In this document: positions 3,030 to 22,537 of the stretch, one piece after another | How the letters are laid out: every line of letters starts with the position of its first letter | Position numbering within the stretch: position 1 is the first letter of the stretch | DNA from: a virus | Reading direction: 5' to 3' (one strand) | IMG/VR virus record: IMGVR_UViG_3300030450_002023 | Location: 1 to 23,568 of that record | Length of the DNA stretch: 23,568 bases | Notes under the pieces: model-generated | Told to the model about the DNA's origin: nothing | Database searches by the model: none | What the model saw: only the letters and a program-made list of their open reading frames with translations | Program-made: the position numbers and the translations under genes

Positions 3030-3039
3030 CAGTCACCTC

Positions 3040-4581: not shown

Positions 4582-4590
4582 TAGGCTATT

Positions 4591-4609
4591 CTCCAATTAA
4601 ATTTTGGAG
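4591..4609 (-). promoter_or_regulatory. Hairpin masking the capsid gene ribosome-binding site
   Basis: In the 34-base gap between scaffold and capsid genes, CTCCAA pairs perfectly with TTGGAG around a 7-base AT loop (AATTTAA) on the minus strand. The downstream arm holds most of the GGAGA ribosome-binding site for the capsid ATG at 4581. A six-pair stem is modest in stability, so it could tune or couple capsid translation to the scaffold ribosome. Pairing is seen directly; the regulatory role is inferred. Confidence 0.45.
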
Positions 4610-5218: not shown

Positions 5219-6235
5219 CTAATTTTGTGCAGATCCAAGCCCTGAAGCGCCCACATTAGTAATCAAACCACCTGTTTGACGTTGCGCTGTTGCTTGCCTA
5301 CGTTGCCGTAATCTTTTAATCTGAGCTGTCGAATCCGGGTCTAAACCAAATGAAGATGCTGCTAACTCGCTAGTAGTAGCGCCTTTATCCGATAACGTAG
5401 CTTGCGTTAAACCAGCTTGAGGATTTAACCTTGCAGTCACTTCACGTTGTTGCACATTCTGGCTAGCTAATTTCTTAGCTAGCCCCACATTAAGACCTTG
5501 CCCTGTTGCTTGTATCGCTGCGGAAGATAACCCTGCTGACTCAAGTTGTAATCGTTGCTCAATAGCAGTTACGCCACGTTCAGGGTCTAAGAAATACGCA
5601 ACAAGCTCACCTTCATCTTCGACCCCTACTCCATAAAATTCTCGCAACTGGTTTTTAAGTTCAGGGTCTACGTTAGCTACTGCTGCTGATGCCATAGCAA
5701 CACGCTGTGACAATTCAGCTTGAGAAACATCATTAGCAATAAATTCAGCTATGTCGTCATCTTCCATAAAGGCTCTAGGAATACCGGCTGATAACATTAA
5801 TTGCCTGGTGTTATCTTCGTATCCGATGTACTCTGCTTCACTCATTGGACCCAAACCGTTCAATCGACGCATTTCTAAGCCCTTAAAGCGCTCTTTGTAT
5901 TCTTCGGTTTGTCGTAAATCGAATAACACAGAGTCAGGGGGTGTCCCATCTAACATCATTTGCCATGCTTTTGGACCTAGATTACTTAATCCGTATTGCT
6001 CCAACGTGTCGCTTATTATTTGGAAAGCAGTTCGGTCATCTTGTTCTTCTTGCGCTGCTGTTATAGCATCATCAGTTAATACGGTCTTTCCGTCGGGTCT
6101 TGGTTTCAAGGTGTCGCCAGTGTATGGCAACGGACCAAACAGGTGTGACATATTTGGTCCATCTAGTTGCTGTTGCGCTTGATAATCTTGCCATGCACTA
6201 GGATTTGACGGATCTAATTTGCGTGGTTCAGCCAT
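5219..6235 (-). CDS. Putative internal virion protein (338 aa)
   Basis: No enzyme motif is visible. The protein is mainly helical. About residues 70-120 read FQIISDTLEQYGLSNLGPKA, then LFDLRQTEEYKERFKG, then MRRLNGLGPMSEAEYIGYE. This block of 'L-x2-YGL' helix plus 'LR-T-x-YK-RF' I remember from uncharacterised virion proteins of actinobacterial and marine phages. The C-terminus carries a Gln/Arg-rich helix (IKRLRQRRQATAQRQTGG) and a flexible Gly-rich end (ASGLGSAQN). The gene starts at ATG sharing one base with the previous stop (TAATG). It is the last of the block between portal and scaffold, so a capsid-internal or portal-associated role is likely but unproven. A candidate promoter follows its stop. 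Confidence 0.6.
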   Translation of the reverse strand: MAEPRKLDPSNPSAWQDYQAQQQLDGPNMSHLFGPLPYTGDTLKPRPDGKTVLTDDAITAAQEEQDDRTAFQIISDTLEQYGLSNLGPKAWQMMLDGTPPDSVLFDLRQTEEYKERFKGLEMRRLNGLGPMSEAEYIGYEDNTRQLMLSAGIPRAFMEDDDIAEFIANDVSQAELSQRVAMASAAVANVDPELKNQLREFYGVGVEDEGELVAYFLDPERGVTAIEQRLQLESAGLSSAAIQATGQGLNVGLAKKLASQNVQQREVTARLNPQAGLTQATLSDKGATTSELAASSFGLDPDSTAQIKRLRQRRQATAQRQTGGLITNVGASGLGSAQN

Positions 6236-8016
6236 TATGCTACCTCCCCAAATGTCTTACCTATCGCATAAGATAAAGACTTAGCCTGGTTCTTCGCATC
6301 ATCAGTCTGTTGCCATTCAGGTAACCCACGAACAAACGTGCGTACCTCAGAAAGACTCATAGGTCGAGAAGTAGTCGAACCAGCATCAGGCATGTACTCG
6401 ATAACGTCAGAGAACTCCTCCAACATATTTACCTGCCTACCCAACATGCCTTCAATCTGGTTTTTGTACGGTGCGAAATACTGCGCCGGGGAAACACCCA
6501 TTTCATTAATTACCTTGTCAAGCGTAGGGAACCTCGATACCGCTGTAGCTTTCAAGAACTGTTCATATTCAAGTTCCGTAGATTCACCAGTGTAAATAGC
6601 TTCAGCCCATTCATTAGCGGACTCATCATCTAACGGCGTGTAGTACTTATACGCTAATTGTTGCAATGAATCACGGGCAGCTCCAAAGCCAGAAATGTCA
6701 TTAGACATTGAATCAAATTCAAGTTCGTCAATTAATTTGCCTCGTATATAATCCTGGTCTTGAGATTCACCCATACGCATAATGTCGTAAGCCAAATCTG
6801 CTTTGCGTTCGTCACTCAAGCTAAACCCTAAGAATTGCGCTTCTTTATCAAGAATGTCCGCTACACCTTCTAGGTATTCGGTTTTCCCTGGTCCGCTTAA
6901 TTGCGCCCAGGTTACGTCGAAAGATCGCATTGCGTTGTCTGTGTCTTGCCACCAATCGGTTTTTTGCAAGAGTGTCAGCACCCTAGATTGGTCTGTTATG
7001 CCGTTATTTACGATGTAGTCCATTATTGGGACTTGAGAAACAGCGTTGGGGTCGTTAACGTCTACTGGTGATCCGTCAGCGGTTAAACCTATTTGTAGTC
7101 CTTGTTGGTTTGCTTCAAAGAAGAATGCTGATCCTCCGAATTGTTCAGCTAGCAATGTTTGTACTTCGCTTCGATCAGCTTGTCTTTGTTTCGCTAACCA
7201 AGGACCAGAACCAGGACCATCAACTTTTTTCTTTTTTTCTTTTTCGCTTGGTATCTCGCCTGCTGCTCCTTGTCCTTCGATTCCTTGCCCTAACCAACCT
7301 GCCCAACCAGCGAAAGCATCCTCGCCTTTAGCCATCTCATCGCCGACAATCGCTGCACCACCCTGGTCATCAAAAACCTTGCCTGTCTCTCTAGCTTTGC
7401 CTTGAGCTTCTAAACCTCTTTCAAGTGTTTCAGCGTATGGTGAAGGAGGTGGAGTAGGTGGAGCCGTAGGCGCACCAGACGGATTAACAAAATTTGCTGC
7501 TGCTTTAGGAGATTCAATTAACTGACTAACTACCCCTGGGTTATCTTTATTAATTACCAAAGCTGCAACTGTTTGAACATCCTGTTCTTCGTTTAATGCT
7601 TTATAGAAATCGAACTTAGGAGCAAAACTTTCTTTAATTTCGGTTTTAATAGTTTGTAATTCAGTAGCTTCTAAGCCTTTAACGTCATAATCAGACTGAT
7701 CTGCTAACTTAGTTAGCATTTGTTCTTTGTTGTATGAACCACGACTAGCATCAAGAAATCCGTGTTTCTTTTCTGCTTCTGATTCACTTAGACTTCCACT
7801 AAGCAAACCAATAATCGTGTCAATGAGATCTGCTTGCCTATTAGCTTCTTCAATTTCTTTCCTAGCATCTCTTACAGCAGATTCATAATTTTTGTATGTA
7901 TCAGTATTACCAGTGTATTCAGCGCCAAGAGAAGGGTAATAATCATTTCTTGATTTTTCTCCGGTTACTCTTTCTTTCTCACGTTCTGCAACAGAATCAA
8001 GATCAAATAAACTCAT
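6235..8016 (-). CDS. Putative internal virion / DNA-ejection protein (593 aa)
   Basis: A large soluble, helical, acidic protein without recognisable catalytic residues. The first ~165 residues are charged and coiled-coil-like (DARKEIEEANRQADLIDTII). A Pro-rich linker (APTAPPTPPPSPY, about 179-195) and a basic patch (EKEKKKK, about 258-266) separate this from the C-terminal half. There LLQKTDWWQDTDNAMRSFD, then a long helix pair ending DLAYDIMRMG, and a final segment with MSLSEVRTFVRGLPEWQQTD are the conserved blocks I remember from large virion proteins of actinobacterial phages. Its start overlaps the preceding stop as ATGA, and its own stop overlaps the next start as TAATG. Being sandwiched between the giant protein and scaffold favours a packaged protein over a tail tube component. 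Confidence 0.6.
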   Translation of the reverse strand: MSLFDLDSVAEREKERVTGEKSRNDYYPSLGAEYTGNTDTYKNYESAVRDARKEIEEANRQADLIDTIIGLLSGSLSESEAEKKHGFLDASRGSYNKEQMLTKLADQSDYDVKGLEATELQTIKTEIKESFAPKFDFYKALNEEQDVQTVAALVINKDNPGVVSQLIESPKAAANFVNPSGAPTAPPTPPPSPYAETLERGLEAQGKARETGKVFDDQGGAAIVGDEMAKGEDAFAGWAGWLGQGIEGQGAAGEIPSEKEKKKKVDGPGSGPWLAKQRQADRSEVQTLLAEQFGGSAFFFEANQQGLQIGLTADGSPVDVNDPNAVSQVPIMDYIVNNGITDQSRVLTLLQKTDWWQDTDNAMRSFDVTWAQLSGPGKTEYLEGVADILDKEAQFLGFSLSDERKADLAYDIMRMGESQDQDYIRGKLIDELEFDSMSNDISGFGAARDSLQQLAYKYYTPLDDESANEWAEAIYTGESTELEYEQFLKATAVSRFPTLDKVINEMGVSPAQYFAPYKNQIEGMLGRQVNMLEEFSDVIEYMPDAGSTTSRPMSLSEVRTFVRGLPEWQQTDDAKNQAKSLSYAIGKTFGEVA

Positions 8017-8780
8017 TGCCTAGCCCCCATTCCCAAAGCACTAAGAATAGTTCTCCCAGCATTAACATACTCCATAGCCTTAGCCTCCTCCGGGTTCTGC
8101 TGTGCAGCAAAATCCATTGCCTGAGCGCCAGGACTTAATTGCATATCAGGATTCGACGCTTGCAAACCATGAATATGTTTCACAAACGCTTGCATCTCCG
8201 CAGCAGTAGGCGCACGCCCAATAGAACCACGGTACGTTTCTTTCAACATACCGTTCAAAGCAGCCGGATCAATATAACGAATGACTCTAGGAGCTTCTTT
8301 TTCAGATTCTTTAATTTCTGCTACACGATTATCAAACAACGTTTTGATTTCCTCACGGGAAAGACTCGCTAAACTCTCTCTCGTCAAAATATCAACAAAA
8401 TACGGGTTATCAATCGCTGCTGCTTGACCTGCTAAAGTAAACGTCTTAGATAAAGCGCCCACATACTCAACCTGGTTCAAAGAACCATCTTCGTTAAAAA
8501 TATCTTCATAATCTGAATACGCCCCTGGCACAGATATAAACATTTCCATAGCCAACAAACCTTGATCCGCTACAGAAAGCTCACTCAATATGTCATAAAC
8601 ATCCTCGACAGTTACATAGCTTGCTGTAGAAACCTGCATACCGCCTTGGCTGGCTCCACCCATACCCCCCGGGGTGTAATAAGAATCCGAATAAACCGTA
8701 TTTGTTTTTAACACGTTGTCAGGAACAGCTTTAGTAACCCCTGATTGAGCTTCATTAAAACGATCTTCTATCTCAGGCAT
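8013..8780 (-). CDS. Putative internal virion protein (255 aa)
   Basis: Function not recognised. The N-terminus is flexible and Gly/Met-rich (YYTPGGMGGASQGGMQVS). A helical middle follows (VTVEDVYDILSELSVADQGL), then DPAALNGMLKETYRGSIGRA-PTAAEMQAFVKHIHG near residue 190, the most distinctive block. 'YR-x-LGR-x-PT-x-xE-x2-F' occurs in my memory of uncharacterised virion proteins from the same phage group. There is no signal peptide or membrane segment. Start shares a base with the giant gene's stop (TAATG), and the stop overlaps the 593-aa start (ATGA). This tight coupling to both neighbours argues for one complex with fixed stoichiometry, probably an internal core or ejection apparatus. That is inference from context alone. 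Confidence 0.58.
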   Translation of the reverse strand: MPEIEDRFNEAQSGVTKAVPDNVLKTNTVYSDSYYTPGGMGGASQGGMQVSTASYVTVEDVYDILSELSVADQGLLAMEMFISVPGAYSDYEDIFNEDGSLNQVEYVGALSKTFTLAGQAAAIDNPYFVDILTRESLASLSREEIKTLFDNRVAEIKESEKEAPRVIRYIDPAALNGMLKETYRGSIGRAPTAAEMQAFVKHIHGLQASNPDMQLSPGAQAMDFAAQQNPEEAKAMEYVNAGRTILSALGMGARQ

Positions 8781-11700
8781 TACGCAGCAAGCCTACTTCC
8801 TTTAAGAACCGAAACGAAACTTTCTTCAGGAATCATATCCCTCGCAAAATAACGATCATAAATTTTAGAAAATTCTGGTATCATCCCAAATTTCTCTCTT
8901 TCAATTTCCCAATACAATAATAGATCAGAATTAGTCTTTGCCGAAAGATCCAAACTACCATCTTCTTCTGTTTTCCTTCTGACAAGTTCTTCTTCGATAT
9001 CTCCTCGCATATCGAAATACCGTACAAGATGTCTAGTTGAAGGTCGCTGTTGAATATGCGGATCGTTCAAAGCATCTAAGAATCCATCAACATACGCAAC
9101 AATGTTTTTCTTAACACCCGAATTGTCCAAGGCAACCCCCCATTGAGGATGTTCTTCTCGGATCATATCTAATTCCTGGTTCTTCCAATCACGCAACCAA
9201 ATCAACGAGCTATGATTCAAACTTGTCGGAAGCCCAGAAGCAAGATTCTCGTCTTGCACTTTTCTAACAAAGCCCATTACTTCATCATATTTTTTCCAAC
9301 CAAGTTCGACCTCAACATCGGAAAGGGTCTCGAACACAGTTTTACGTTCACGACGTTTCCTCGGATCTGCTGGACTGATCTGTTCTTGCTGTTGCTTACG
9401 ATATGCTGCCTGGTTGAATTTATATTCCTCATCTGACCCACCCAAACTAAACGTTAGGTAAGCACCTATCGCTGGGTGAGCTTCAACTAATTCTTGAACA
9501 ACTTCTCTAGCTTTCTCTGAAGTAGCTGAAGCAGCTACACCATCATTCAAACGAGTCATCCTTGCCGTAAGCGCAAACAAATCCTCGCCGTACTCAGCTA
9601 AGAACCTTGAATCGCCTTCTCGGACACCGTACTTCTTTTGATAATCTTTAGCGATTTTCATAAGATCGTAGTAAGGAGAAACTGCTGTGGTAGAAGTTGG
9701 AGAGAACAACCCTGTAGCAGCTCTAAAGATAAAGAACTGCTCCGTTCTATGGTTAGCCTCACTGATCCACTGGTTAACAGCTATCTCATCTGATAAATCT
9801 ATTGGCTTCCCGAGTTCTTCTGCTTCTACATAAATTTGCAAAGCCATTGATTGAACCATTCGTTCCCTGGTAGGAGTTTCCCAGAACCAGTTAACAACGT
9901 TTTGCTGCCAAGCAGGTAAATAACCTGAAATCATTCGTTGTGTTAAGCCACCTTCAGGATGCCCCAACGGGAACATGAAACTAACTGTTTCTTCTAAAGA
10001 AGGATCAGCTAGAACCGCTTCTCTTACCGGAATAGTTAACAAAGGACCGAAACCAGGAATGCCACTTTGCAGCATCGAGAACAACCCTTCCTTGCTGAAA
10101 CGGATGTTTCTCTGCTCAGTTATATCACCTAACACACCCGGGCGTAAGCTCTTAGGGATTTTAGATACATACTCAGGTAACCTAAACACATTGTATTTAG
10201 TGCCTTCATCATCCACGATTTCAGTGACTCCAATAGCTTCAAAGTTCCAAGGTGCTTGATACAAGCGCCATGTTTTAGCCACGAACGCTGGGTTTTCTGT
10301 AGCAAGCCTGCCCCATCTTGTTAACACTTCTTGCCATGCGTTAAAGAATGGGAATATCAACCTAGTCATTTCACCAAACCGTGATTCCTCAGCTAAATCG
10401 TACAACAAGTCTTTTGTTTCTCCCAGAGCTTTTGTTCTAGCTGTTTCTTCAATCCTTTGTAATTGGCGTTGAGTTAAATTAACTTCACCAGATTTATCAA
10501 TATGCTTACTGACCAAACGAACAACTTCACGTTCATACTTAGTTCTGAAATATGGGTGTCTTGAAAGTTCATCAGAAGGAATAGTTCCAAGCGTGTCAAA
10601 CATTTCTTCAACCCATGCGTTCACTTTGGCATTAACTCCAGGGATTCGACCTGCGTCTACTGTCCTGTGATTAGGTGCGTTAGCTACTCCGAAATCTCTG
10701 TGAGCTTCAAATGCTCTGCCTTCCTGGGAAGTGCGAATAATGTTAATTAAGTTCTGTTGCTTGATCGACGCTTGCTGTTGTCGGTAAACCTTTAGTTCAT
10801 TTGTATACCCTTCACGCATTTCTTCAGGCAAGTATTTTTCTGGGTTTTTGAGAAATTCTTCTTCTGATATTTTATTTGCTTTTAAGAAATCATCAAATTC
10901 AAATGCGTCATCATCAAGCCCCCTCATCCTCAAGTAATACTCTTTAGGACTAGGTTCCTTCATCAGCTCGATATCACCCAAAAGAGATTTAACAACATCT
11001 GGGTTAGCTAAGACATCTTCAACGTCTTTCCAAACTACAGGTTCGCCTTCTTGGATTCTAGCTCGGAGTTTAGCAAATGTCGGACCTTCACTTTCAACTA
11101 AGATTCTTGGAACAACCTGGTCAAATTCTTCAATTATATGACTTGCTGCGGTTGCGTATGCTTCCTCCGCATTCTCGAATCTGTTAATTTCTAAGACATT
11201 TAATCGTGTCCGTAAATCTTTACTATTTGCAAGTTCAGCAGCAAGTCTTTGCACACGTTCAACTTTCGGAGCGTCGCTCCAAATAATTCTGAATACTCCC
11301 TCGAAACCATTGCCGATAGCTTGGTAACGATTTATTAATCTATTCCAACCATCAACAAACGCAGCTTTATCCGTCGCTTCGTCACCTAACCTCCATGTGA
11401 CCCAATCAGCCGAAGCAGTTTTCTTAAATTCTTTGATATGGAAATTTCTCCTGCTTTTAACTGCTGCCATTTGAGAAGAAGAAGCAGAGTTCTCAGAAGC
11501 GATCATCTCTCTATGAGCTGAATCATCCCCATAAGCGTTCCGAACTATAGCGCCATTTATATTCAAATTACCAAATCCGCTATTTTCTATTAGAGCATCA
11601 GCCTTCTCTACGTTGTTCACTATCAGGTCAGTGTCGACTGTTGCATGGCGACCAGTGTTTTTAGGCTGTTCTTTTATAGTCCCACGGTTTGTTGCTTCCC

Positions 11701-14700
11701 TAAGTAGTTCCTGAACAAATTTTTCAGTATCTTCAGCACGACTTAACATGCCCTTAGCAATTTCTTGCAACACCAGATCTTCTTCGTCAATAGCTTCTCT
11801 AAGAAGTTTTTTAGCTTCACGCATTAATTGATCCGCTATTGCCATCCCGGTATTTAATTGAGCGACATTATTTAGACGTTGCCATCTTCTAATACCATGC
11901 ACGCCAGCCCAAGCTGCGCCAACAACAGGATTCAACAAAGCTGCACCGATCACAAATCGAGCTGCCGAAGGTCGGTACACCTTTCTTTTCCCTGCAATTT
12001 CTCTAGCTTCTTTCGCTGCTTTATCACCAAAGTATTCGTGGAAATTATCCACCGTATAATTAGTTCCATGTAGCTTATTAAAATCTTCGATATTGTCTTG
12101 GATCATTCTCATCTGATCCCCGATGCTTTCAGGGTCGTAAACCCTGCCGTATTTCTCCCTAAACGCAGGTTTCTTCCCAGTCCCATGCCCTGCTATTTCA
12201 GTAGCATCTACCACTAAAGAATCCATCATACTTTTCATATCAAACTCGATGCCATTAGCAGCAAGAGTATTTTTCCACCTACGAGTATTGACAATAAGAT
12301 TAGTAAGTTCTGATAAAGCTCCTATATCTGCTGCTCGACGTAACGTTTCATCTAATTGGATACGCAGCCCCCACTTAGGAGTAAGCAACACCAAAGGTCG
12401 CCACACCGTCATAGTCCCTTCAGCTAAAGCATTCACCGCCCCAGCAGCACTCATTTGTGCTTCTTTAGCGATAGAAACTGAATCTAGCTTAGATAGTTCT
12501 TCTGCTTCTGCTGCACTAAGTTCTTTTAATTCCTTTTTCCTTTGATCCAATTCTTCTCGGCTAATTTTGCCCCTGTATTTATCATCAATTTTTGCTCGTT
12601 TAGTCGCATACTTTTCTTCGATTAACTGAACTTTTGATTTCCCACCTTTACGCCGTAAAGAAGAACGACCTGTTTCAGAGATAGCGTCGTCTACAGCTTT
12701 CCCTAATAAATCCCAACGAGGCACAACCGAAGCCTGTTTAACTTCATGCGTAGACATGTTCAGATTTATTGAGAAAAACTCACCGTTCTCATCTACACCT
12801 GAAATAACAGTTCTTTTAAGTTTGCCTTCCTGAACACCTTTCGCCTGGTCTGCTAATCCTGTCCCTACAGGAGCTTCCGAAGCTCCTTCTTGAACACCCA
12901 TCTGGCTTCTAGGTTTACGTCGCCCTCTGCCAGTTTCAACTTCTTTGCCAGTCCGCAACTGGTTGTTTTTCATATCGCCAGATTTCTTATACGCTTCTTG
13001 AAGCGAAATTTCTGTCTCGACACCTAATTGCTTTAGTAACTTATCCCCTCTCTCAGCCAACGTGTCCATTTTGGTTTCAAAAAGATTCTTCAAATTATCG
13101 TGTTGTACCGGACCGCCATCTGTCGCAATCCGAGATATTTCACCCATAAATTCAACAACCTCATCCAAACCAATTAATTTGATTTCAATACTGGAAGCCC
13201 CTTCAACAACAAACGCCCTACCAGCTTTAACTAATTTTTCTAAATCTTCTGGTTTCAAAGCATTCGCAGGTATTTTGAATGCAACTTTTGATGCTTGTTC
13301 AAGTACCCGTTCAACCTGCCTTGTCACCCCTTGAGTGTTCGCCCAATTTATGAGCGAGTGAGGTAAACGTTGATTAAAAACCCGTAATGTCCTAAAGCCA
13401 AGCGGACTTAACGTCGAAGGGATACGGTAATCATCAACAATTTCGCTAGCCCATTTTTCCGGGTCAGACGTTTTTGCTCTTTGATACAGTTCAGAATAGC
13501 TTAAGCCAGATTCCCCAGCTTCTCGCAATTCCCTATGTCGAGCGTACAACGTAGCCATACGACTTTCGTAATACCCAATAATCTGACCTGAATAAATAGT
13601 TTCGATAGGCGCATCTACAATCCTTGCAAATTCAACTCCCCCGTTTTCGGTAATTAATTCGGCTACGATATTTAACCGATTTGTGAAATTAGGGTCATCC
13701 ATCAATAGCTCTGCTACTGAAGGCGTATCCGCAGGATTTCCAGTCCCAAACACAGAACTCTTTCGGGGCATATTCATTTTCAACGTGTAATCAACGTCAA
13801 TCAATGTTTCCCAATCAACACTATGTAACTTTCCGTGACCTTCAGTAACTTCGTCTATCAACTCATCTATTCTGGCTTGCCGAGCTAACTGAGCTTCGCT
13901 ACTTGTTGTCGCCCTGGATACTTCAAAGTCATTCCACCAGTTATTAACTTCTTGGACAGCTTGCTCCATAGTCGTAATTGCGGTTGTTTCAGGTTCCGCT
14001 ACTTGCCCGAGTAACGCAGCTTCTTGATCTACTGTTCTTGCAGCAGTTTCAACATCAGCTACAGTTGCTGGGCGACCTTCACGAATTAATACCCCTTCTT
14101 CATTTCTGACAAGAGGTGAACGTTTCTCAATAATTTCTCCATCAATAATTACTGTGATAGCCCCATCTTCATCAACTATTTGCACAGAGGCTTCTTTACC
14201 TAATTTCATTTCAGCATCTTGCAAAACAAATACGCCATCTTCTTCGACAAAATCGTCGATTGTTAAACGACCTGCTAAATGCCCTTTCGCAGCTAGATGG
14301 GCTTTAGCATCAGCTTTATTTGAATCATTTACGTTGCCTCGCAGACGAGCTGTCGGAGGGGTGTAGCCTGGTTTTACTTCACCTTTAGCGGTGAATTTGT
14401 CGGTCATTTGGAAGCCATGCAACTCAGCTACTACATTGTCAAATACTTCTTTTGTGGTTTTGCCGGATATCTTTTTCGACCCTGGTGATTTTCGCCCTAC
14501 TGCCACATAGTGTTCCTCTGTTAAAGTCACACTGTAGGTACCAGCTTGGGTTTTTGCGACTCGAATTGCGATAGGGTAATCCATACTCTTTGCCGTTACC
14601 AGTTCAATTCTTTTGCTACTTCCAGTTATAGGTTCTACAGGGTTATATTTCCCTACGATTCTGCCTTCTCTGTCTCGCACTACATAATTTGTGTGCGCCC

Positions 14701-17700
14701 TAACGGTTCTATCTCTTTTACGATCAAAAGTGCCATCTATGAACTGTTCATCAACTTTTTCTGCCTCAACTGTAAATTCGCCGGAAAGATCTTCTACAGC
14801 TCCGGTCTCATCCTTAACGGCTTTCTTACGAATCGGATGATCGTACCTTAAGCCCTTGCTTGTAGTTTCATCTTTATTTCTACGAATTAATTTATTGAAA
14901 AGATCTTTAGATGATTTCCCTACTAGATCATCTCCAAATTCGTCAACAACTACGAATCCCATTTCTTCCAGAAGCGTAGTATCAACAAACATGTGTCCTT
15001 TGCCTTCTACTTTGACTGTTTCAACAACTTCTCCCCTTCGAGTCCGTTGAGGAACATCTGATCTTCCGAATCCCCTTGCAAGTTCACTCCCTGTAAATTC
15101 ATCCAGATCGACTTCATAAAGATCTCTAACTCGATCTCGACCCGTCGATGTTAACTCCCTTTCCCTCCGCAGAGCTGGAGTCCCTACATCCGGTGGGAAC
15201 GTTTCCATACCAACTTCTACAACTTGCCCCTCGTCTATGACATGCGGATGCACTTTAATTCGTTCGTTGCCCTTAACGCTTTTGCCAGCAGTATAACTAA
15301 TTAACCTGACAGGCTCTCCAACACCTTCCTCTCCAAGCAAATGTGTCTCATCGACGATTCGCCATTCTATAATCTCGTAACTAGATTCAGGAAGATGGAC
15401 CATGCGTGAATGCAGCTCATACTCTACGGGTTCGCCGGTACTTTTAGAACTGTGTAGTAAACCTACGGCAGAGCCATCATCAATAGCTTCGCCTAACGCA
15501 ATCGCTTGTTCCCTGGCTAACATATCTTCTTTTAATTTAGGGATATCTGATACTCCCATCGGTCTGAACTTAGTTCCCCATTTCTTTTGATGGTCGTAGC
15601 TCTTGATTCTTCTTATTTCTTCAACGGTTCCGTCAGCTTTAACTAATAATTCGACCCAGATTGGGGCATGTCTCCCCTTTTCCATCCTCGATACCTCTAC
15701 AAGAATTACGTTGTTAGTTGTGTCCACATCTACAACTGTACGACCATTAAGCTCACCGAATATCTCCGAGTTGAGAACCATTTCAGTATGTTTCTCTGTT
15801 CGTTCTATAACCCCGATTAGGTTTTCGTTTTCCAAAACATCCAGAACCGGCATGTCTGGAATAAACCCGGAATCTCCTACCTCAAGCGCTTCTGGCGATT
15901 TACCCCACAATGGACCAACCCCAAATTCTCCCATTTCAGTCGTTCCAACAGGAATCCCTCTAGCTCGTTCCTTGTATGTAAAACTTTTCCAGCTCTCAGA
16001 TTCAAGCATTGTGACTGGGGCAAGTACTTTACTTCCTCCATGTAAGCTAGGATCCCATATTTCTGGACCCCACCTTGTACGGAAAAGTTTTGTCTCCGTA
16101 CCTGGTGTTAAACGACTCCTGAAATATGCAAGGGCTTGGTCAGTATCATCACCTATTTGCTTTATTAATTCATCGATTACCCCTTCGTCAACTTTACCAA
16201 TCTCGCCTTCCCTTTTTAGAACTCTTAACGTGTCCCGGATCTCTTGAAGCATGAACAGCTCTTTAAGAATGCGTTTACCCAACGGAGATAAACGCCCGAT
16301 TTCTTTACGACCAGCGTATCCTTCCCCGGTGTTAAATGGGGAATTTCCTAGAGTTCCCCTATCGACTATTCCCCCCGTCTTACGGCGAAGCGTATTTTCT
16401 TCATCCCAGCTATCAGCTATTCTTCTGATTTGTTTCCTAGTGGTCATGTGCCTTTCTAAGAACACTCTTACAGCCTCGGCTAATGATATGCCAGTTCGTG
16501 TAATTATTGTATTTATTGCTTCGGTAGCGTTAGCGACATCTTGTATATCTGCCCAATCTTCTACAGGTTTTGTTCTAGTTTCTGGTATTGTTGCTGCTTC
16601 TTCGACTAAAGCTGGTGTCGGAGTTTCAGTAACTGCTTCTTCGACTACTTCTTCAACAGTTTCTTTTGAAACTTCATCTATTTTCTTTGCTAATGCCCTA
16701 GCACTAGCTCGCAGCCCTTTGTCAAAATCATCTCCATCAGCGTAAAATTTTGCATCTTCAAAAAGATCTACAAAACCTTCATTTGAAAAATCTGCTTTAA
16801 TAAAATAATGAGTTTTTGTTTCTTTAACGATCTCTGGCATAGGTAAATCCCTAGACAAATGATCGTCTACAAACAGTTTTGTAACTTTAATTACTTGAGG
16901 TTCTTTAACTGCTTCTTCAACAGTTTCTTCGACTACTTCTTCAACAGTTTCTTTTTTTTCTGTTTTCCGAGCATCTCTTTTCCGAGCATTATCACGTTCA
17001 CGTTTCTTAGCTTCTTTTTCAGCAGCTCGAGCTTCTTCATCTAGCTTCCGTAAATGCCTAATTTCCCGAACTTTTTCATAAAACGTTTGACCATTATCAT
17101 CGGGTCCAAGCATCTCTCTGATCTCATCACCAAACTCACCTACATCATCCCAGACTGACATATCCCCCATCAAAGCACGAAACGTTAAATCTCTAGCTTC
17201 CGGGGTTGCGCCTCTAGCGATCAACTCAAACGCTTGTTCTGGCATACCTTTACCTTTACCAGCCATACGCCGAGGGATAGCATCCTTTAATCCTTGTAAT
17301 CTCCCATTTTTAGCTTCAGAAAGATTCACTTCTTCAAACACATCTAAATTATCGAAAGCTCCCATGTTGCTTTGCGCTCTTTGCCACCAAGCTAAATTCA
17401 AAGCACTTTGCGCTCTTAAAGAGTTAATTGGCTGGGCGATCATAGCTCGAGCTGTTCGTTGCTCCCTCGTTAACGTTTTTGTTTTTTTGCCAGGAAAGAT
17501 ACCTTTTGATTTGATAAGTTTTCCTTCAGCGTCAGCAGATCTCCAACCTTTACCACCTCCACGCACATACACACGTTCCGGGGATAATTCCAAACCCATT
17601 CTATTATGAGCAGTCCTACGACCTATAACATGGGCATCTCCAAAATCTTCAACTTTGTCAAGAAGCCGACCTGTTTTACTTACCGCAACTACTGTTTTAC

Positions 17701-18307
17701 CAGTGGCAAGATTCTTAGCCCCTCTAGCGAAACGCTCAACCGGATCTAAATAAATTTCTTGCACGAAATCAACAAACCCTGACATGAGATCAAATAATGG
17801 GTCATCTTCAATTTTGGCGTATTCTGCTTCATCAAAAGGGTCGATACGATAAATAGCTGCTGCAACAGATTGCCCTAGCGTTCGTTTATCGTTAATATCC
17901 CATGCACTTGCCCAAGCGGAACTATCAAATATCTTGTCAGGTCTGCCATTTATAGAAGCGCTTAACATAGTCGCAACTGTTCCTAAAGGTCTATCAACAA
18001 CTTCTTGCATCACCCAATCCCACGCTTCAAAAGCAGGACCAACTACTTGTCGCCCAGGGGAACGCACTTGTTCCGGCAACGCTCCTATCAAAGAACCCAC
18101 AACTCCTTCAGGTCCAAAAGCACCTGATAAAGTTTGTCCCATTAAATCTTCTTGAACGCTGCCTAAAAGAATTTCAAAACCATCATCGAAATCGCCTTGC
18201 GCTATTTCATACCCTGAATGAACAACGTCAATGCCAAATTTGCCGACACCTAAACCGATATCGACAAACCCTTTAGCTATGTTACCTACTCGATCAAATA
18301 ATCCCAT
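8780..18307 (-). CDS. Giant internal virion protein, candidate DNA-ejection protein (3175 aa)
   Basis: A single uninterrupted 9.5-kb frame. Visible regions: residues 1-120, Gly-rich amphipathic helices (MGLFDRVGNIAKGFVDIGLG); about 423-470, a Lys/Arg/Glu coiled coil ending in ETVEEVVEETVEEAV; about 545-570, the same repeat again; about 700-1400, a long beta-rich stretch with few recognisable motifs; about 1960-2000, WRPLVLLTPKWGLRIQLDET; 2116-2138, a hydrophobic Ala/Gly segment (FVIGAALLNPVVGAAWAGV); about 2646-2715, LIFPFFNAWQEVLTRWGRL and following. The last two conserved blocks resemble very large virion proteins of actinobacterial and marine phages in my memory. A membrane-active, ejected protein is the best reading. 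Size is comparable to the N4 virion RNA polymerase, but I cannot find the polymerase motifs. TAATG junctions at both ends. Confidence 0.72.
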   Translation of the reverse strand: MGLFDRVGNIAKGFVDIGLGVGKFGIDVVHSGYEIAQGDFDDGFEILLGSVQEDLMGQTLSGAFGPEGVVGSLIGALPEQVRSPGRQVVGPAFEAWDWVMQEVVDRPLGTVATMLSASINGRPDKIFDSSAWASAWDINDKRTLGQSVAAAIYRIDPFDEAEYAKIEDDPLFDLMSGFVDFVQEIYLDPVERFARGAKNLATGKTVVAVSKTGRLLDKVEDFGDAHVIGRRTAHNRMGLELSPERVYVRGGGKGWRSADAEGKLIKSKGIFPGKKTKTLTREQRTARAMIAQPINSLRAQSALNLAWWQRAQSNMGAFDNLDVFEEVNLSEAKNGRLQGLKDAIPRRMAGKGKGMPEQAFELIARGATPEARDLTFRALMGDMSVWDDVGEFGDEIREMLGPDDNGQTFYEKVREIRHLRKLDEEARAAEKEAKKRERDNARKRDARKTEKKETVEEVVEETVEEAVKEPQVIKVTKLFVDDHLSRDLPMPEIVKETKTHYFIKADFSNEGFVDLFEDAKFYADGDDFDKGLRASARALAKKIDEVSKETVEEVVEEAVTETPTPALVEEAATIPETRTKPVEDWADIQDVANATEAINTIITRTGISLAEAVRVFLERHMTTRKQIRRIADSWDEENTLRRKTGGIVDRGTLGNSPFNTGEGYAGRKEIGRLSPLGKRILKELFMLQEIRDTLRVLKREGEIGKVDEGVIDELIKQIGDDTDQALAYFRSRLTPGTETKLFRTRWGPEIWDPSLHGGSKVLAPVTMLESESWKSFTYKERARGIPVGTTEMGEFGVGPLWGKSPEALEVGDSGFIPDMPVLDVLENENLIGVIERTEKHTEMVLNSEIFGELNGRTVVDVDTTNNVILVEVSRMEKGRHAPIWVELLVKADGTVEEIRRIKSYDHQKKWGTKFRPMGVSDIPKLKEDMLAREQAIALGEAIDDGSAVGLLHSSKSTGEPVEYELHSRMVHLPESSYEIIEWRIVDETHLLGEEGVGEPVRLISYTAGKSVKGNERIKVHPHVIDEGQVVEVGMETFPPDVGTPALRRERELTSTGRDRVRDLYEVDLDEFTGSELARGFGRSDVPQRTRRGEVVETVKVEGKGHMFVDTTLLEEMGFVVVDEFGDDLVGKSSKDLFNKLIRRNKDETTSKGLRYDHPIRKKAVKDETGAVEDLSGEFTVEAEKVDEQFIDGTFDRKRDRTVRAHTNYVVRDREGRIVGKYNPVEPITGSSKRIELVTAKSMDYPIAIRVAKTQAGTYSVTLTEEHYVAVGRKSPGSKKISGKTTKEVFDNVVAELHGFQMTDKFTAKGEVKPGYTPPTARLRGNVNDSNKADAKAHLAAKGHLAGRLTIDDFVEEDGVFVLQDAEMKLGKEASVQIVDEDGAITVIIDGEIIEKRSPLVRNEEGVLIREGRPATVADVETAARTVDQEAALLGQVAEPETTAITTMEQAVQEVNNWWNDFEVSRATTSSEAQLARQARIDELIDEVTEGHGKLHSVDWETLIDVDYTLKMNMPRKSSVFGTGNPADTPSVAELLMDDPNFTNRLNIVAELITENGGVEFARIVDAPIETIYSGQIIGYYESRMATLYARHRELREAGESGLSYSELYQRAKTSDPEKWASEIVDDYRIPSTLSPLGFRTLRVFNQRLPHSLINWANTQGVTRQVERVLEQASKVAFKIPANALKPEDLEKLVKAGRAFVVEGASSIEIKLIGLDEVVEFMGEISRIATDGGPVQHDNLKNLFETKMDTLAERGDKLLKQLGVETEISLQEAYKKSGDMKNNQLRTGKEVETGRGRRKPRSQMGVQEGASEAPVGTGLADQAKGVQEGKLKRTVISGVDENGEFFSINLNMSTHEVKQASVVPRWDLLGKAVDDAISETGRSSLRRKGGKSKVQLIEEKYATKRAKIDDKYRGKISREELDQRKKELKELSAAEAEELSKLDSVSIAKEAQMSAAGAVNALAEGTMTVWRPLVLLTPKWGLRIQLDETLRRAADIGALSELTNLIVNTRRWKNTLAANGIEFDMKSMMDSLVVDATEIAGHGTGKKPAFREKYGRVYDPESIGDQMRMIQDNIEDFNKLHGTNYTVDNFHEYFGDKAAKEAREIAGKRKVYRPSAARFVIGAALLNPVVGAAWAGVHGIRRWQRLNNVAQLNTGMAIADQLMREAKKLLREAIDEEDLVLQEIAKGMLSRAEDTEKFVQELLREATNRGTIKEQPKNTGRHATVDTDLIVNNVEKADALIENSGFGNLNINGAIVRNAYGDDSAHREMIASENSASSSQMAAVKSRRNFHIKEFKKTASADWVTWRLGDEATDKAAFVDGWNRLINRYQAIGNGFEGVFRIIWSDAPKVERVQRLAAELANSKDLRTRLNVLEINRFENAEEAYATAASHIIEEFDQVVPRILVESEGPTFAKLRARIQEGEPVVWKDVEDVLANPDVVKSLLGDIELMKEPSPKEYYLRMRGLDDDAFEFDDFLKANKISEEEFLKNPEKYLPEEMREGYTNELKVYRQQQASIKQQNLINIIRTSQEGRAFEAHRDFGVANAPNHRTVDAGRIPGVNAKVNAWVEEMFDTLGTIPSDELSRHPYFRTKYEREVVRLVSKHIDKSGEVNLTQRQLQRIEETARTKALGETKDLLYDLAEESRFGEMTRLIFPFFNAWQEVLTRWGRLATENPAFVAKTWRLYQAPWNFEAIGVTEIVDDEGTKYNVFRLPEYVSKIPKSLRPGVLGDITEQRNIRFSKEGLFSMLQSGIPGFGPLLTIPVREAVLADPSLEETVSFMFPLGHPEGGLTQRMISGYLPAWQQNVVNWFWETPTRERMVQSMALQIYVEAEELGKPIDLSDEIAVNQWISEANHRTEQFFIFRAATGLFSPTSTTAVSPYYDLMKIAKDYQKKYGVREGDSRFLAEYGEDLFALTARMTRLNDGVAASATSEKAREVVQELVEAHPAIGAYLTFSLGGSDEEYKFNQAAYRKQQQEQISPADPRKRRERKTVFETLSDVEVELGWKKYDEVMGFVRKVQDENLASGLPTSLNHSSLIWLRDWKNQELDMIREEHPQWGVALDNSGVKKNIVAYVDGFLDALNDPHIQQRPSTRHLVRYFDMRGDIEEELVRRKTEEDGSLDLSAKTNSDLLLYWEIEREKFGMIPEFSKIYDRYFARDMIPEESFVSVLKGSRLAA
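16637..16955 (-). repeat. 31-bp direct repeat encoding ETVEEVVEE in giant gene
   Basis: The identical 31-base segment occurs at 16637-16667 and 16925-16955 within the giant gene. It encodes KETVEEVVEE in the same frame each time, and a degenerate extra unit (ETVEEAV) follows the 16925 copy. Identity at the DNA level over 288 bases separation suggests recent duplication or slippage, or gene conversion between the copies. Confidence 0.85.
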
Positions 18308-18672
18308 TAAAGTTCTTCTATCGGACCTACAAATGATTTCATTTCACGGACAAGATTTCTAAGCTGAGGCGATGAATGAGGCTCTGAAGCCATTTGTTCC
18401 AACACAGGTAACATAGATAAAGTTTTTTTACGCCTCATCATGTTATCTTCTGGAGTTGGAGCGTTAACCCCATCGCCCATAGCTGTTATAGCTTCCCCTG
18501 GTCTTTCAGAGGGTCTTTTGAAACTTGCCTCACCTGGGCGCATTGCAGGAACTCCAGGTTCCATTTTAGGTAACGGAACTATTCCTTGTGATTCTTCTTG
18601 CGCTTTAGCTTCACCATACTGTTGCCCTGTGACAGTTTTAGCTGCCTGTTGTCCTTTTCCTTTTCTTGGCAT
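18307..18672 (-). CDS. Small protein between portal and giant gene (121 aa)
   Basis: No family recognised. The first ~80 residues are disordered-looking: basic MPRKGKGQQAAK start, then Pro/Gly/Glu-rich (PLPKMEPGVPAMRPGEASF and PSERPGEAITAMGDG). The last ~40 residues form a probable amphipathic helix pair (TLSMLPVLEQMASEP, then QLRNLVREMKSFVG). Overlaps by one base at each end with portal stop and giant start (TAATG both times). A small, partly disordered protein in this position could be a head-tail connector accessory, a chaperone for the giant protein or a minor packaged protein. Sequence does not choose among these. Confidence 0.65.
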   Translation of the reverse strand: MPRKGKGQQAAKTVTGQQYGEAKAQEESQGIVPLPKMEPGVPAMRPGEASFKRPSERPGEAITAMGDGVNAPTPEDNMMRRKKTLSMLPVLEQMASEPHSSPQLRNLVREMKSFVGPIEEL

Positions 18673-20435
18673 TACATAGCTCCAAGAAGTTCAGCTAAAC
18701 CGGCAGGTCCACCCTCGGCTGGAGGAGCAGCCATAGCTTCAGCTCCAGCTCCGGGTAGAGCTATGCCAGGTTGTGCTTCAGGGGATGTAGGCGAAACCAT
18801 TTCGGCTTGCCTTTCTTGCGCTTCACGCTGTACTTTCTCAACAGCGCCAGCAAGTTCTTCTTTGTCAGCTTTAACAAGATCAATGATACGAGCAATATCC
18901 GCAGGCGGTATTGCCCCTGTCGCTGCTTGCTGTTGCAAACCAGATAACAAACTTTGCTCCAACTGTTCAGCAGTCACAGCGTCACGTTCAGCTTCAACAT
19001 CTTCAACAAGAGGATCTATCTTCATAAAGGACTCTTTTGACATTGTTCCCATTTGAAGCCTTTGACCGCCAGCAATAACAAGATTATTGATGTCAGCGCC
19101 AGCATGGCTGTAAGACACCACATTGTCATCCGTTGTAAAGTGTTTATTCGGGACATAATCTACCTTACCTTTCACCTTGCCCATAGAAACATAAAACGAT
19201 TTAGATTTGCTACCGGCATGGGACTTAGCCATAGCGATAGCTATTTTGTTTTCAGCTTCTAATGAACGAGCAAGGATACGTTGCGATTCTTGGACAGCGA
19301 AATCAACAACAGCGGAAAGCACAGCGTCACCACGGCGACCAGTACGAATGTTGCTAGTAGATTCACCACCGAACTCGGCAGGGACACCAGCAGTTAAACG
19401 CTGCGCCCTTTCCAAACGATCAATCGCAGGGTTAGTCATAAACCCTGGCTGTAATTGCATGTCCCGTAAGTCACCGCCACGGATAACACCAACTTCACCA
19501 GTCAGTCCGTTCGCTGCGTTAATAATTGAAGGCTGTTCACCAGCTCTACCAACAAGCCAAGTATCAGGAAAGATACCTTTCTGCACAGCTATAACTTCCA
19601 AAGCCATCAGCTTCGCCTGCTGCTGGTACATTCCAAGAATGCCATCGAACTGTCCGCTAGGTTCATCCAACGAAATACGTTGCGACATAACAACAGGACA
19701 TACCCCTGTCCGGTTAGGGACACGTTCTAATTCTGCAACAACAAGTTCATGGTCATCTTTCGACGACCACATGCCTACACTGTGAGCAGGATTGCGAACA
19801 GCGACAAGCACATATTCTTCATGGTCAACGTATTCGATAAGTTCTATAGGTCGAGATTGATCGTAAGGAGCGTCAGCAACGCCAGCAAACCGCAAAGCAG
19901 CATCAGGATATTGTTTACGAACCCAACCAAATGAACGCTCATAACCAAACACGCAATCCGAAGGACTCATATCATCAGCCCCACGCAAATTAGACGGATA
20001 CGCTGTTAACGGATCACGAACATGCCACGTTGGGCAACCCTTATCGTGGTCAAAACGTATCTGAACAATCGTGTTGGCATACCCAATTAAATGTCTTGCT
20101 CTCTTAGCTAGTTGCATGTCAATTCTTGAGTTCTGCCACCACCCGAAAAGCGCTTTACGACGAATCGCAGCAAACTTCTGAGCTTGCTTAGATGACTCAT
20201 CTTCAGGTGGACACACAATGTCCGGGGTTACCGAAGCTATCCGCATAGCTGTCTGATCTAAACCTTGCGCTAACAAGTTAGCAACAGCGGAAGATTCGGT
20301 GGTATCTATCTCAGGTAAAGGAATGATAACGTCACCATTGTAATGGTCACGGATATTTCTCATTCTTTCTTTCGCACCAGCATGATTAGATGATCTGGCA
20401 TAATACAGATCTACAATTTCTTCAACGGTTTTCAA
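18672..20435 (-). CDS. Portal protein (587 aa)
   Basis: Forms the dodecameric vertex ring through which DNA enters. It directly follows the large terminase and has portal length. Features: N-terminal helices (VEEIVDLYYARSSNHAGAKE), a beta-rich wing with VRDPLTAYPSNLRGADD, a central segment ending LERAQRLTAGVPAEFGGEST, and then SNIRTGRRGDAVLSAVVDFA followed by the long helix QESQRILARSLEAENKIAIA, typical of the portal crown/stem. The C-terminal ~45 residues are disordered and Pro/Ala/Gly-rich. The start is TTG at 20433-20435, four bases after the terminase stop. GGGG lies eight bases before it. The next in-frame ATG is 24 codons in and would remove conserved-looking helix, so TTG is preferred. 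Coupling to terminase translation is likely. Confidence 0.88.
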   Translation of the reverse strand: MKTVEEIVDLYYARSSNHAGAKERMRNIRDHYNGDVIIPLPEIDTTESSAVANLLAQGLDQTAMRIASVTPDIVCPPEDESSKQAQKFAAIRRKALFGWWQNSRIDMQLAKRARHLIGYANTIVQIRFDHDKGCPTWHVRDPLTAYPSNLRGADDMSPSDCVFGYERSFGWVRKQYPDAALRFAGVADAPYDQSRPIELIEYVDHEEYVLVAVRNPAHSVGMWSSKDDHELVVAELERVPNRTGVCPVVMSQRISLDEPSGQFDGILGMYQQQAKLMALEVIAVQKGIFPDTWLVGRAGEQPSIINAANGLTGEVGVIRGGDLRDMQLQPGFMTNPAIDRLERAQRLTAGVPAEFGGESTSNIRTGRRGDAVLSAVVDFAVQESQRILARSLEAENKIAIAMAKSHAGSKSKSFYVSMGKVKGKVDYVPNKHFTTDDNVVSYSHAGADINNLVIAGGQRLQMGTMSKESFMKIDPLVEDVEAERDAVTAEQLEQSLLSGLQQQAATGAIPPADIARIIDLVKADKEELAGAVEKVQREAQERQAEMVSPTSPEAQPGIALPGAGAEAMAAPPAEGGPAGLAELLGAM

Positions 20436-20439
20436 TTTA

Positions 20440-22353
20440 TTAACCCCAGTTTTCTGTCACCCAGGAAGGTCGCCATTGCTTTACTGGTTCTGCCATTGGC
20501 GTATATAATTTTTCTAGGTTATGTTCTACGAACCATTGTGCCATAACACAGTCGTCAGTCCTAGACCCTGTGCCTTCTGGGTTCCATTTTGTTACTTCAT
20601 TTACCAAAAGCAAAGAATGGGGTCTAGCATCAGTACGTTGCTTACCGGGAAGTCGAATACGACCTAAACGGTACAAAGGCGCTAACATCTGCACCCCATA
20701 CTTAGGATCACCCTTGTTTCGAGCATGTGTATAATGCGGAACAAGCTCAACTCCTCTAAGAGCTGACCACCTTCGGAAATGATCGTACTGCAAAATAAAT
20801 TTCTGAGCAGCGTTCGCTTCAACTATCCAATGCGTAATCGGATTACCTATCTCGTTACTAATCTGCCACCACTCCTCAGCTATCCCAGTGAACGTTTGCG
20901 TGTCATGGTTCCAATCCAAAAACGCTGGAGCATCCATCTTACGACGATACGACTCCAACAAATAACGGTACTCACTATCAGGACAATACGCCCAGCATTG
21001 CAAAGCCCAAAAATTAGATGGGGAAGGATCGGCTGAAGCAACTACCATGACATCTCCTGGAAGATATCGTGGTATTTCCCACAGGTCACGTTCTTTATCC
21101 CAACATCCAATGTAATCCACCCCGTTTTTGCCCTCTCCTCCGCTAATCCAAAGAGGATCAACTAAAACAGAAGCAGGGTCAGAGTCCTCCTGCTGGTACA
21201 AAATCTCATAACGGTCAGGTGTTTGCGCTTTCACATGACGTATCTTCCGCCACGGCAACCTCCGAGGATACAACATGCACCCTTCCGGGTAAGCAGGATC
21301 ACTTATCTTATGGAAACCTTCACATCTATCTTCATAATGCGCTTTGAATTTCAAATGGCTGTACTTGCGTTCCCCTTCACCATCTACTTTGTCCTCATCT
21401 ATCTCTATTTCTTCTTCTTCTTCAAGCGGAGCGAACTTATCTAACGCATAACGGTAAATATCATCAGAAGCCATACGCTGCCCCTGCAACACCAACAAAC
21501 CACCCGGCTCCAACCGTGTTTCAGCCACCTCATCCCACCAACGATACATGTCAGAACGAGACTCCGAGTTACGCATCTTACGAGGATCCCAAACATCATC
21601 CCAAATAATAAGATCAAAACGACCACCAAGAAAACCAGAGTCCATACCGAACGCTGACCATGACGGTTCCTTCTGAGACAACGCCACATCCCCTGGTTGC
21701 ACAATCGTGAACGCTTCTGCACGCCAGATTTCTTTAGCGTCAGGCTTAAACTGACCAAAGTCCTGCTGTAAAGTACGTTCAGCGTCAACCGCTAATTTCA
21801 ATTTAACATCGTTTAATTCGGCTCGGGCGACATGCTCTCGTTCAAACTCCGCACGCAAACGTCGTGTATACCATTCTGCTAATCGTTGCGTCGAGGAACC
21901 GAGCATTCCACGAATTGCCCTATTGCGGACCGTCGCCCAAGCCGGAAGCACCTTCGCAAAGAACGTTGATTTACCGCTGCCAGGGGGTGCATTGATAACA
22001 ACGTATTCTTCTAAAGGTGTTTCAAAAAGCGAAAAAATTTTCTCAGTGGCTTCTATCTGCCACGGTTGCAAGATAATGCCAAAATAGCGTAAAGCGAATT
22101 TCTCAATGTTATCCCAGCATTCCTGCACCTCCGATGGAAGTTCCTCATAACTAGGAATATCAGAAACCCCAACCTTATCAACCTGTTCTTTCGCTATTAC
22201 ATAATTTCGGGTTGATACACGCCCAGATTCATTATCTCTAGCAGAATGATAATTAACACCAGCCTGCTGCGCTGCTTTCCACATACTGTTACTACGTCTG
22301 AGAATAAGGTACTCAACCCATTTCTCAACTGGGGTAGCTTTACCAGAAGCCAT
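20440..22353 (-). CDS. Terminase large subunit with N-terminal HTH-like segment (637 aa)
   Basis: Motor ATPase and nuclease for DNA packaging. ATPase: LQPWQIE near 96-101 (Q-motif), Walker A APPGSGKST at 122-130, Walker B RFDLIIWDD at 245-253, and LVLQGQR at 287-293 as coupling motif. Nuclease: acidic residues at D442 (ASADPSPSNF), E512 (HWIVEANAAQ) and D600/D601 (SRTDDCVMAQW), the usual three-carboxylate RNase H-like site. A run of acidic residues (EEEEEIEIDEDK, 311-322) lies in the linker between domains. Residues about 12-45 (EYLILRRSNSMWKAAQQAGV) look like a helix-turn-helix usually found in the small terminase subunit. No separate small subunit is visible in this window. Start ATG overlaps the preceding stop as TAATG. 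Confidence 0.95.
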   Translation of the reverse strand: MASGKATPVEKWVEYLILRRSNSMWKAAQQAGVNYHSARDNESGRVSTRNYVIAKEQVDKVGVSDIPSYEELPSEVQECWDNIEKFALRYFGIILQPWQIEATEKIFSLFETPLEEYVVINAPPGSGKSTFFAKVLPAWATVRNRAIRGMLGSSTQRLAEWYTRRLRAEFEREHVARAELNDVKLKLAVDAERTLQQDFGQFKPDAKEIWRAEAFTIVQPGDVALSQKEPSWSAFGMDSGFLGGRFDLIIWDDVWDPRKMRNSESRSDMYRWWDEVAETRLEPGGLLVLQGQRMASDDIYRYALDKFAPLEEEEEIEIDEDKVDGEGERKYSHLKFKAHYEDRCEGFHKISDPAYPEGCMLYPRRLPWRKIRHVKAQTPDRYEILYQQEDSDPASVLVDPLWISGGEGKNGVDYIGCWDKERDLWEIPRYLPGDVMVVASADPSPSNFWALQCWAYCPDSEYRYLLESYRRKMDAPAFLDWNHDTQTFTGIAEEWWQISNEIGNPITHWIVEANAAQKFILQYDHFRRWSALRGVELVPHYTHARNKGDPKYGVQMLAPLYRLGRIRLPGKQRTDARPHSLLLVNEVTKWNPEGTGSRTDDCVMAQWFVEHNLEKLYTPMAEPVKQWRPSWVTENWG

Positions 22354-22535
22354 TAATCATTCCACTCGATCCAAGCCCTAGCGCCACACGACAACGGCTT
22401 ATCAGACTGCACAACCTTAGCCCCTTTAGGAATCTCAAACTCTTGATGATACTCAGATCCCTTGTACGTTCGATGTATAACAGCAGGGAGTCCTTTTCGG
22501 AGCCTTTGCTGGTGTATATGAACCTGATGTTTCAT
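22353..22535 (-). CDS. Small conserved phage protein (60 aa)
   Basis: Basic at its N-terminus (MKHQVHIHQQRLRKGLPAVI), then a beta-rich segment with HQEFEIPKGAKVVQSDKPL and SCGARAWIEW. The ending 'VV-S-x-KPL-x-CGAR-W-E' is a pattern I remember from small uncharacterised proteins next to terminases in actinobacterial phages. It has no recognised function. A nucleic-acid-binding or packaging accessory role is possible from the basic N-terminus and the location. It starts two bases after the 70-aa stop and its stop forms TAATG with the terminase start. Confidence 0.75.
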   Translation of the reverse strand: MKHQVHIHQQRLRKGLPAVIHRTYKGSEYHQEFEIPKGAKVVQSDKPLSCGARAWIEWND

Positions 22536-22537
22536 AA

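Follow-up and report, generated by a model that had tools for sequence, protein, structure and literature searches.

Ejection proteins have been described mainly in podoviruses of Gram-negative hosts. The T7 ejectosome (gp14, gp15, and gp16) and its counterparts in SP6, phiKMV, P-SSP7, and P22 are encoded as a block of large cysteine-free proteins, with a lytic transglycosylase (SLT) domain on T7 gp16. N4 gp50, the virion RNA polymerase (vRNAP), is very large and has no cysteine in its 3500 amino acids (aa), and the lack of cysteine in N4-like polymerases has been linked to transit of the tail and the periplasm (PMC3715699, PMC2784036, PMC3915230). In crAss-like phages, very large and partly unfolded proteins, namely the cargo proteins C1 and C2 and the vRNAP, travel inside the capsid and are ejected by way of the short tail (PMC10136315). 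For phi29-like phages of Gram-positive bacteria, PMC8954989 reports no ejection proteins. Here we analyze a 23,568-base viral fragment (IMG/VR record IMGVR_UViG_3300030450_002023, positions 1 to 23,568; hereafter the window), which encodes a protein of 3175 aa (hereafter the giant).

The closest described relatives of the giant are the gp9 proteins of the Beephvirinae (FlowerPower, Immanuel3, Manuel, and WRightOn), homologous to it over the C-terminal 600–800 residues and in parts elsewhere. FlowerPower gp9 has the same operon position, lacks cysteine, and is likewise uncharacterized, but it has only 1635 aa and lacks a central cassette of 1000 aa that is present in the giant. Unlike the marine virus of the window, these Streptomyces podoviruses have terrestrial hosts. 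The explanation that we favor, with a probability of about 0.7, is that the giant is a podoviral ejection protein that serves as a trans-envelope conduit, has an exchangeable central cassette, and belongs to a virus with a probable actinobacterial host.

A Conserved Family of Giant Proteins

A sequence-only reading had pointed to an unbroken frame of 3175 codons without stating its strand. The frame is indeed uninterrupted, starts with ATG, and lies on the minus strand (8780–18307). It is not a chance frame, because homologous unbroken frames are found at the equivalent position in more than 60 marine viral contigs. Searches of IMG/VR with the large terminase subunit (TerL) and with the giant retrieve about 90 loci, and in the complete ones a frame of 1570–3409 aa always follows the portal gene and one small gene. 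The family corresponds to the uncharacterized PHROG 10618 (phrog_10618, E = 2e-27), the only PHROG that the giant matches. Among isolated phages, matches are confined to 27 Streptomyces phage records. FlowerPower and Abafar are classified in the Beephvirinae, and the giant matches FlowerPower gp9 at 7e-24 with tblastn and at 4.9e-102 with the hidden Markov model (HMM) of the family.

The coding order in the window is TerL, portal, a 121-aa protein, and the giant, followed by proteins of 255, 593, 338, and 154 aa (the last a presumed scaffold), the major capsid protein (MCP), and a 141-aa protein. The giant had been placed between portal and scaffold, which is the right order but a loose description, as the 121-aa gene on one side and the 255-, 593-, and 338-aa genes on the other intervene. 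When FlowerPower is searched with profiles of the marine proteins, its genes are matched without a change of order (portal, gp3; 121 aa, gp7; giant, gp9; 255 aa, gp10; 593 aa, gp11 and gp12; 338 aa, gp13; MCP, gp36). Hence, the synteny TerL-portal-121-giant-255-593-338-(scaffold)-MCP is shared with FlowerPower genes 1, 3, 7, 9, 10, 11/12, 13, and 36. In T7, by contrast, the order differs, since in the window the giant closely follows the portal and precedes the MCP; N4 gp50 lies at the opposite end of the structural block. As judged from these comparisons, the giant belongs to the uncharacterized family of Streptomyces podovirus gp9 proteins and is a version lengthened by an orphan cassette.

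The actinobacterial regulator WhiB scores above cut-off in FlowerPower and in 16 of the 23 related viral contigs, hence in 17 of 24 records, and, in the control set, solely in Corynebacterium glutamicum, the one actinobacterium named there. From this we infer that the hosts of the family are probably Actinobacteria; unlike those of T7-type phages, they would probably be monoderm. One contig of 59,966 bases (G007:C1, loci L111 and L112) encodes giants of 1837 and 2915 aa that differ from each other and are separated by 40 kb, either through an assembly join of two related phages or through duplication of the structural block.

Cysteine Avoidance and Wall Hydrolases in the Gene Block

The giant has no cysteine in 3175 residues, against about 26 expected if it had the cysteine frequency usual for virion proteins of podoviruses (8.15 per 1000; Poisson P(0) ~6e-12). 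Taken together, 69 giants (137,861 aa) have 14 cysteines, or 0.10 per 1000, compared with 6.6 for the portal and 11.2 for TerL in the same loci, and across the 27,410 aa of the nine giants exceeding 2500 aa there is not a single cysteine, even within the cassettes. The neighboring families are similarly depleted (per 1000 residues: 121 aa, 0.12; 255 aa, 0.22; 593 aa, 0.05; 338 aa, 0.28), and the values for the MCP and the 141-aa protein are 6.0 and 8.8. In well-studied phages, the annotated ejected or internal proteins (of T7, SP6, phiKMV, P-SSP7, P22, epsilon15, and N4) have 7 cysteines in 17,623 aa; the other virion and packaging proteins (of T7, SP6, phiKMV, P-SSP7, P22, epsilon15, and lambda), a pool that includes the lambda tape measure, have 183 in 22,448 aa. 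None of eight P22 gp16 homologs has a cysteine.

Wall hydrolase domains are found on the neighbors and not on the giant, in contrast with T7, where the domain is on gp16 itself. FlowerPower gp11 has an N-terminal NlpC/P60 peptidase (1.7e-29) and gp12 an SLT lytic transglycosylase (3.6e-05), both fused to a C-terminal part shared with the 593-aa protein, so that the FlowerPower counterparts of this gene bring muralytic domains into the block. The N-terminal half of the 593-aa family is variable in length (186–875 aa) and modular too; no known hydrolase domain was found in the eight longer marine homologs scanned. The SLT matches in marine records fall in small frames of their own and not in the giant. 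FlowerPower gp11 and gp12 (L091:12173-14767) are adjacent paralogs annotated as "minor tail protein," and the lone cysteine of gp11 falls within the peptidase domain. One marine homolog of the 593-aa protein (L107:4614-6650, minus strand) has a peptidoglycan-binding domain (PF01471) at residues 205–259.

The Conserved Regions of the Giant

Pairwise alignments match the giant to its relatives from residue 1 to 430/460 and again from about 1476. The N-terminal module (38–55% identity with the nearest relatives) is Gly-rich, as had been noticed, and contains a conserved GAFGPEG motif; the coiled coil of the sequence-only reading corresponds to a charged, coiled-coil-like stretch at about 404–470. 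The C-terminal blocks that looked conserved in the single sequence are truly so across relatives: the FPFFNAW block is among the most conserved stretches, and the region 2580–3133 is nearly constant in length (536–671 residues). A model of the 1199 C-terminal residues, built with 50 homologs, has a pLDDT of 76 and is essentially all-alpha. Comparison of this model with the PDB (Foldseek, VIA-align) gave no significant match, just common helical arrangements; the folds of T7 gp15/gp16, portals, and polymerases are not among the matches listed, which excludes nothing. In BFVD, the seven matches with E < 1e-3 are uncharacterized or unnamed phage proteins, including one of Streptomyces phage Manuel, consistent with a single family. 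No prophage copy was found in the genome contigs scanned with the core.

A hydrophobic Ala/Gly segment, first placed at residues 2116–2138, lies at 2118–2136. With a mean hydropathy of 1.76 it is the most hydrophobic stretch of the giant, and a 19-mer with hydropathy ≥1.0 occurs there in 61 of 66 relatives (versus 6.5% of random positions), often as the top stretch of the protein concerned; a proline at the column of residue 2127 is found in 53 of the 66. In the model the segment sits where two long helices meet (H115–149 and H152–197, model numbering), which makes a membrane-inserting hairpin plausible. Such a segment fits the membrane-crossing role proposed from the sequence, and we consider a conduit function of the conserved core somewhat better than an even bet.

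No enzyme family is recognized in the giant among Pfam and NCBIfam families and PDB sequences, as the absence of motifs had suggested, nor in any of 16 giants tested. No profile relation to T7 gp16, to which the giant had been likened, was found in the family HMM search. P22 gp16 topped an HMM search of 474 true and reversed phage frames (E = 0.00096), a hit treated as chance: seven of its homologs scored lower, and hhalign gave a probability of 0.4 of 100. Matches to the type III translocators AopB/SipB were weak and below threshold and were not used. By these tests, the giant does not belong to the homologous families of T7 gp16 or P22 gp16, and no profile or fold homology to the T7-type ejectosome was found. 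Nor was a sequence link found to C1, C2, or the vRNAP of crAss-like phages.

The giant resembles the N4 vRNAP in size and in its lack of cysteine, and the window MCP belongs to PF13252, a family that includes N4 gp56 and is that of the N4 MCP. One might thus suppose an encapsidated polymerase, either of T7-like fold as N4 gp50 or a two-barrel enzyme as in crAss-like phages, injected for early transcription. A Pfam match to RPOC_hybrid, the hybrid domain of the RNA polymerase beta-prime subunit (residues 1336–1430, E = 0.016), points the same way, but it is below threshold and falls within the orphan cassette, which is missing from relatives. Neither FlowerPower nor any of the 23 related marine records shows a match to the family of T7-like RNA polymerases (PF00940); this test is weak because, although T7 and phiKMV are positive, the N4 vRNAP itself matches only at E = 0.007. 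The DxDxD catalytic motif of two-barrel polymerases does not occur in the 3175 residues, and the invariant residues of the core (Gly, Pro, Arg, Phe, and Ala) are not catalytic. No polymerase signature was found, and we consider the giant very unlikely to be such an enzyme.

The Central Cassette

In four relatives (L005, L006, L007, and L072), the two parts matching the giant directly adjoin, so that about 1000–1046 residues of the giant constitute an insert. In L106/L003, both flanks are shared with the giant (47% and 41% identity over the aligned parts, 71% near the C-terminus), and an unrelated segment of 830 residues takes the place of the cassette: its Smith-Waterman score with the cassette is 57 (shuffled mean 52, standard deviation 7.5), versus 1129 and 512 for the flanks. 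Large insertions occur in other relatives at two further sites, near residues 180–380 and 1970–2240. Searches of viral contigs, bacterial genomes, phages, and plasmids brought up nothing related to the cassette, the contigs being scanned with short exact peptide patterns, which reach close relatives only; a scan with the N-terminal module gave 16 loci and no further cassette-bearing relative.

In the TerL tree, the phage of the window groups with five cassette-free phages in a set of six (100/80), and L003 lies just outside (100/96). The TerL most similar to that of the window (94% identity) is from the cassette-free L004. The third bearer of a cassette at the central site, L075 (giant L114), is far away, and the distribution requires at least two changes. 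The tree is compatible with either gain of the cassette in the phage of the window or its loss in the five kin. The GC content of the cassette is similar to that of the flanks.

The central region had been described as beta-rich and as the likeliest place for a new domain. Its fraction of the residues VITYF is higher (0.26–0.30) than in the N-terminal module and middle region (0.22), but this is composition alone, and the last 675 residues also reach 0.26. The center does differ in kind from the rest, if in an unexpected way: this cassette can be replaced, and nearly all relatives lack it. A single-sequence model of it (pLDDT 34) is worthless, and no fold search was based on it.

Cassettes occur at three sites and are unrelated from one sister phage to the next, and none of the giants exceeding 2500 aa has a cysteine. 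These features could also suggest that the giant is ejected mainly as a carrier of toxins or effectors, in the manner of polyvalent proteins, with the core as delivery vehicle and the cassette as cytoplasmic payload. In two relatives, L008:14056-21366 (residues 1265–1341) and L016:12233-19624 (residues 1311–1409), a segment within an insert, at a different site of the giant, matches the C-terminal part of PHROG 2579 ("ParB C-terminal domain") with E ~1e-14 and ~1e-12. Yet most relatives have no large cassette, the 16 giants tested have no enzyme family, and matches to "large polyvalent protein" in BFVD are weak and at best borderline in significance. We therefore regard a carrier function as improbable, if less so than a polymerase. 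Within the ejection reading, an active payload is a minority possibility for the cassette, and an adaptor or a spacer is the more probable role. That actinophages swap payloads of about 1000 residues at fixed sites, the cassette being one or more new cysteine-purged domains with their own activity on an exchangeable ejection vehicle, is a speculative proposal.

Proposed Ejection and Its Alternatives

The proposal that the giant is ejected is well supported, if indirectly, by its position, its podovirus relatives, its lack of cysteine, and its wall-hydrolase neighbors, and the giant is very probably an internal virion protein of this kind. It would be packaged near the portal and, at infection, would travel in an unfolded state, first through the portal and then through the short tail, ahead of the DNA. 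The helical core may then form or anchor a trans-envelope DNA conduit, its Gly/Ala/Pro segment being embedded in the cell membrane and the 255-, 593-, and 338-aa neighbors taking part in the structure; in the Streptomyces relatives, these partners would supply the enzymes that cut the wall. The center of about 1000 residues would be exchangeable cargo, whose likeliest role is that of an adaptor specific to the host or envelope, or of an accessory domain that is delivered.

Several points weigh against this explanation. None of the comparisons of sequence, profile, or fold connects the giant with a protein shown to be ejected; a single hydrophobic segment is little for a channel; and the host assignment depends on WhiB in relatives, the window itself having no WhiB in view, although no search aimed at it was made there. 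Further, the lambda tape measure (0 cysteines in 853 aa) and scaffolds (0 in 1,497 aa) are likewise cysteine-free. Absence of cysteine therefore marks passage through a channel, or exit from or transience in the capsid, and not ejection alone. The giant, large, helical, and cysteine-free as lambda gpH, might accordingly be taken for a tape measure or another fixed tail or structural protein. What separates ejection from these possibilities is the gene position, beside the portal and ahead of the MCP, and the tail: Abafar, a related Streptomyces phage, is a podovirus with a 16-nm tail (PMC11536984), against ~476 nm for 3175 residues at 1.5 Å each. In addition, length varies twofold between related phages, and the fold search with the core, where a confident match could have revealed a tape measure, gave matches to such proteins at chance level only. 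A fixed tail component is thus highly improbable.

Other Features of the Window

After the 141-aa gene, the operon ends with a tail-fiber-like protein of 592 aa, an endolysin (PG_binding_1 and a weak M15/VanY-type match), and a presumed holin of 81 aa. Upstream of TerL (22353–23310) are four small frames, of which those of 87 and 74 aa are very rich in Lys and Arg. In one relative (L076:10001-12793), the TerL frame has 931 aa, about 290 more than in relatives, possibly because of an intein or insertion.

Table 1. Genes of the window and regions of the giant protein
Feature	Position	Strand	Basis
Terminase large subunit (TerL)	20440..22353	-	Family match
Portal protein, homolog of FlowerPower gp3	18672..20435	-	Profile match
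121-aa Cys-free protein, homolog of FlowerPower gp7	18307..18672	-	Profile match
Gene of the giant (3175 aa), phrog_10618, presumably an internal virion protein that is ejected	8780..18307	-	ORF and homology
255-aa Cys-free protein, homolog of FlowerPower gp10, presumed ejection partner	8013..8780	-	Profile match
593-aa Cys-free protein, homolog of FlowerPower gp11 and gp12, presumed ejection partner	6235..8016	-	Profile match
338-aa Cys-free protein, homolog of FlowerPower gp13, phrog_8424, presumed ejection partner	5219..6235	-	Profile match
Major capsid protein (MCP), PF13252 / phrog_1357	3640..4596	-	Family match
Giant: N-terminal module, residues 1–430; invariant SG..D......DP motif	17018..18307	-	Alignment
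Giant: charged, probably coiled-coil stretch, residues 404–470, close to cassette 5' junction	16898..17098	-	Sequence
Giant: orphan central cassette, residues ~431–1476; strictly unmatched core 510–1457	13880..17017	-	Alignments
Giant: middle conserved region, residues 1477–1975	12383..13879	-	Alignment
Giant: C-terminal conserved core, residues 1976–3175, predicted all-alpha	8783..12382	-	Alignment and model
Giant: conserved hydrophobic Gly/Ala/Pro segment, residues 2118–2136	11900..11956	-	Hydropathy and relatives
Giant: FPFFNAW block, residues 2652–2658, consensus PFxNAWQEV..RW	10334..10354	-	Alignment

Implications

Cysteine avoidance is proposed as a simple marker for ejection blocks, one open to testing in other phages. 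If our explanation is correct, a widespread family of giant, cysteine-free, and modular ejected proteins exists in podoviruses probably infecting Actinobacteria, some of which can be cultured on Streptomyces. These phages would offer a system in which to study passage through the thick wall of a monoderm cell by a phage with a short tail, and such a family would mean that ejection proteins are able to gain and swap very large cassettes.

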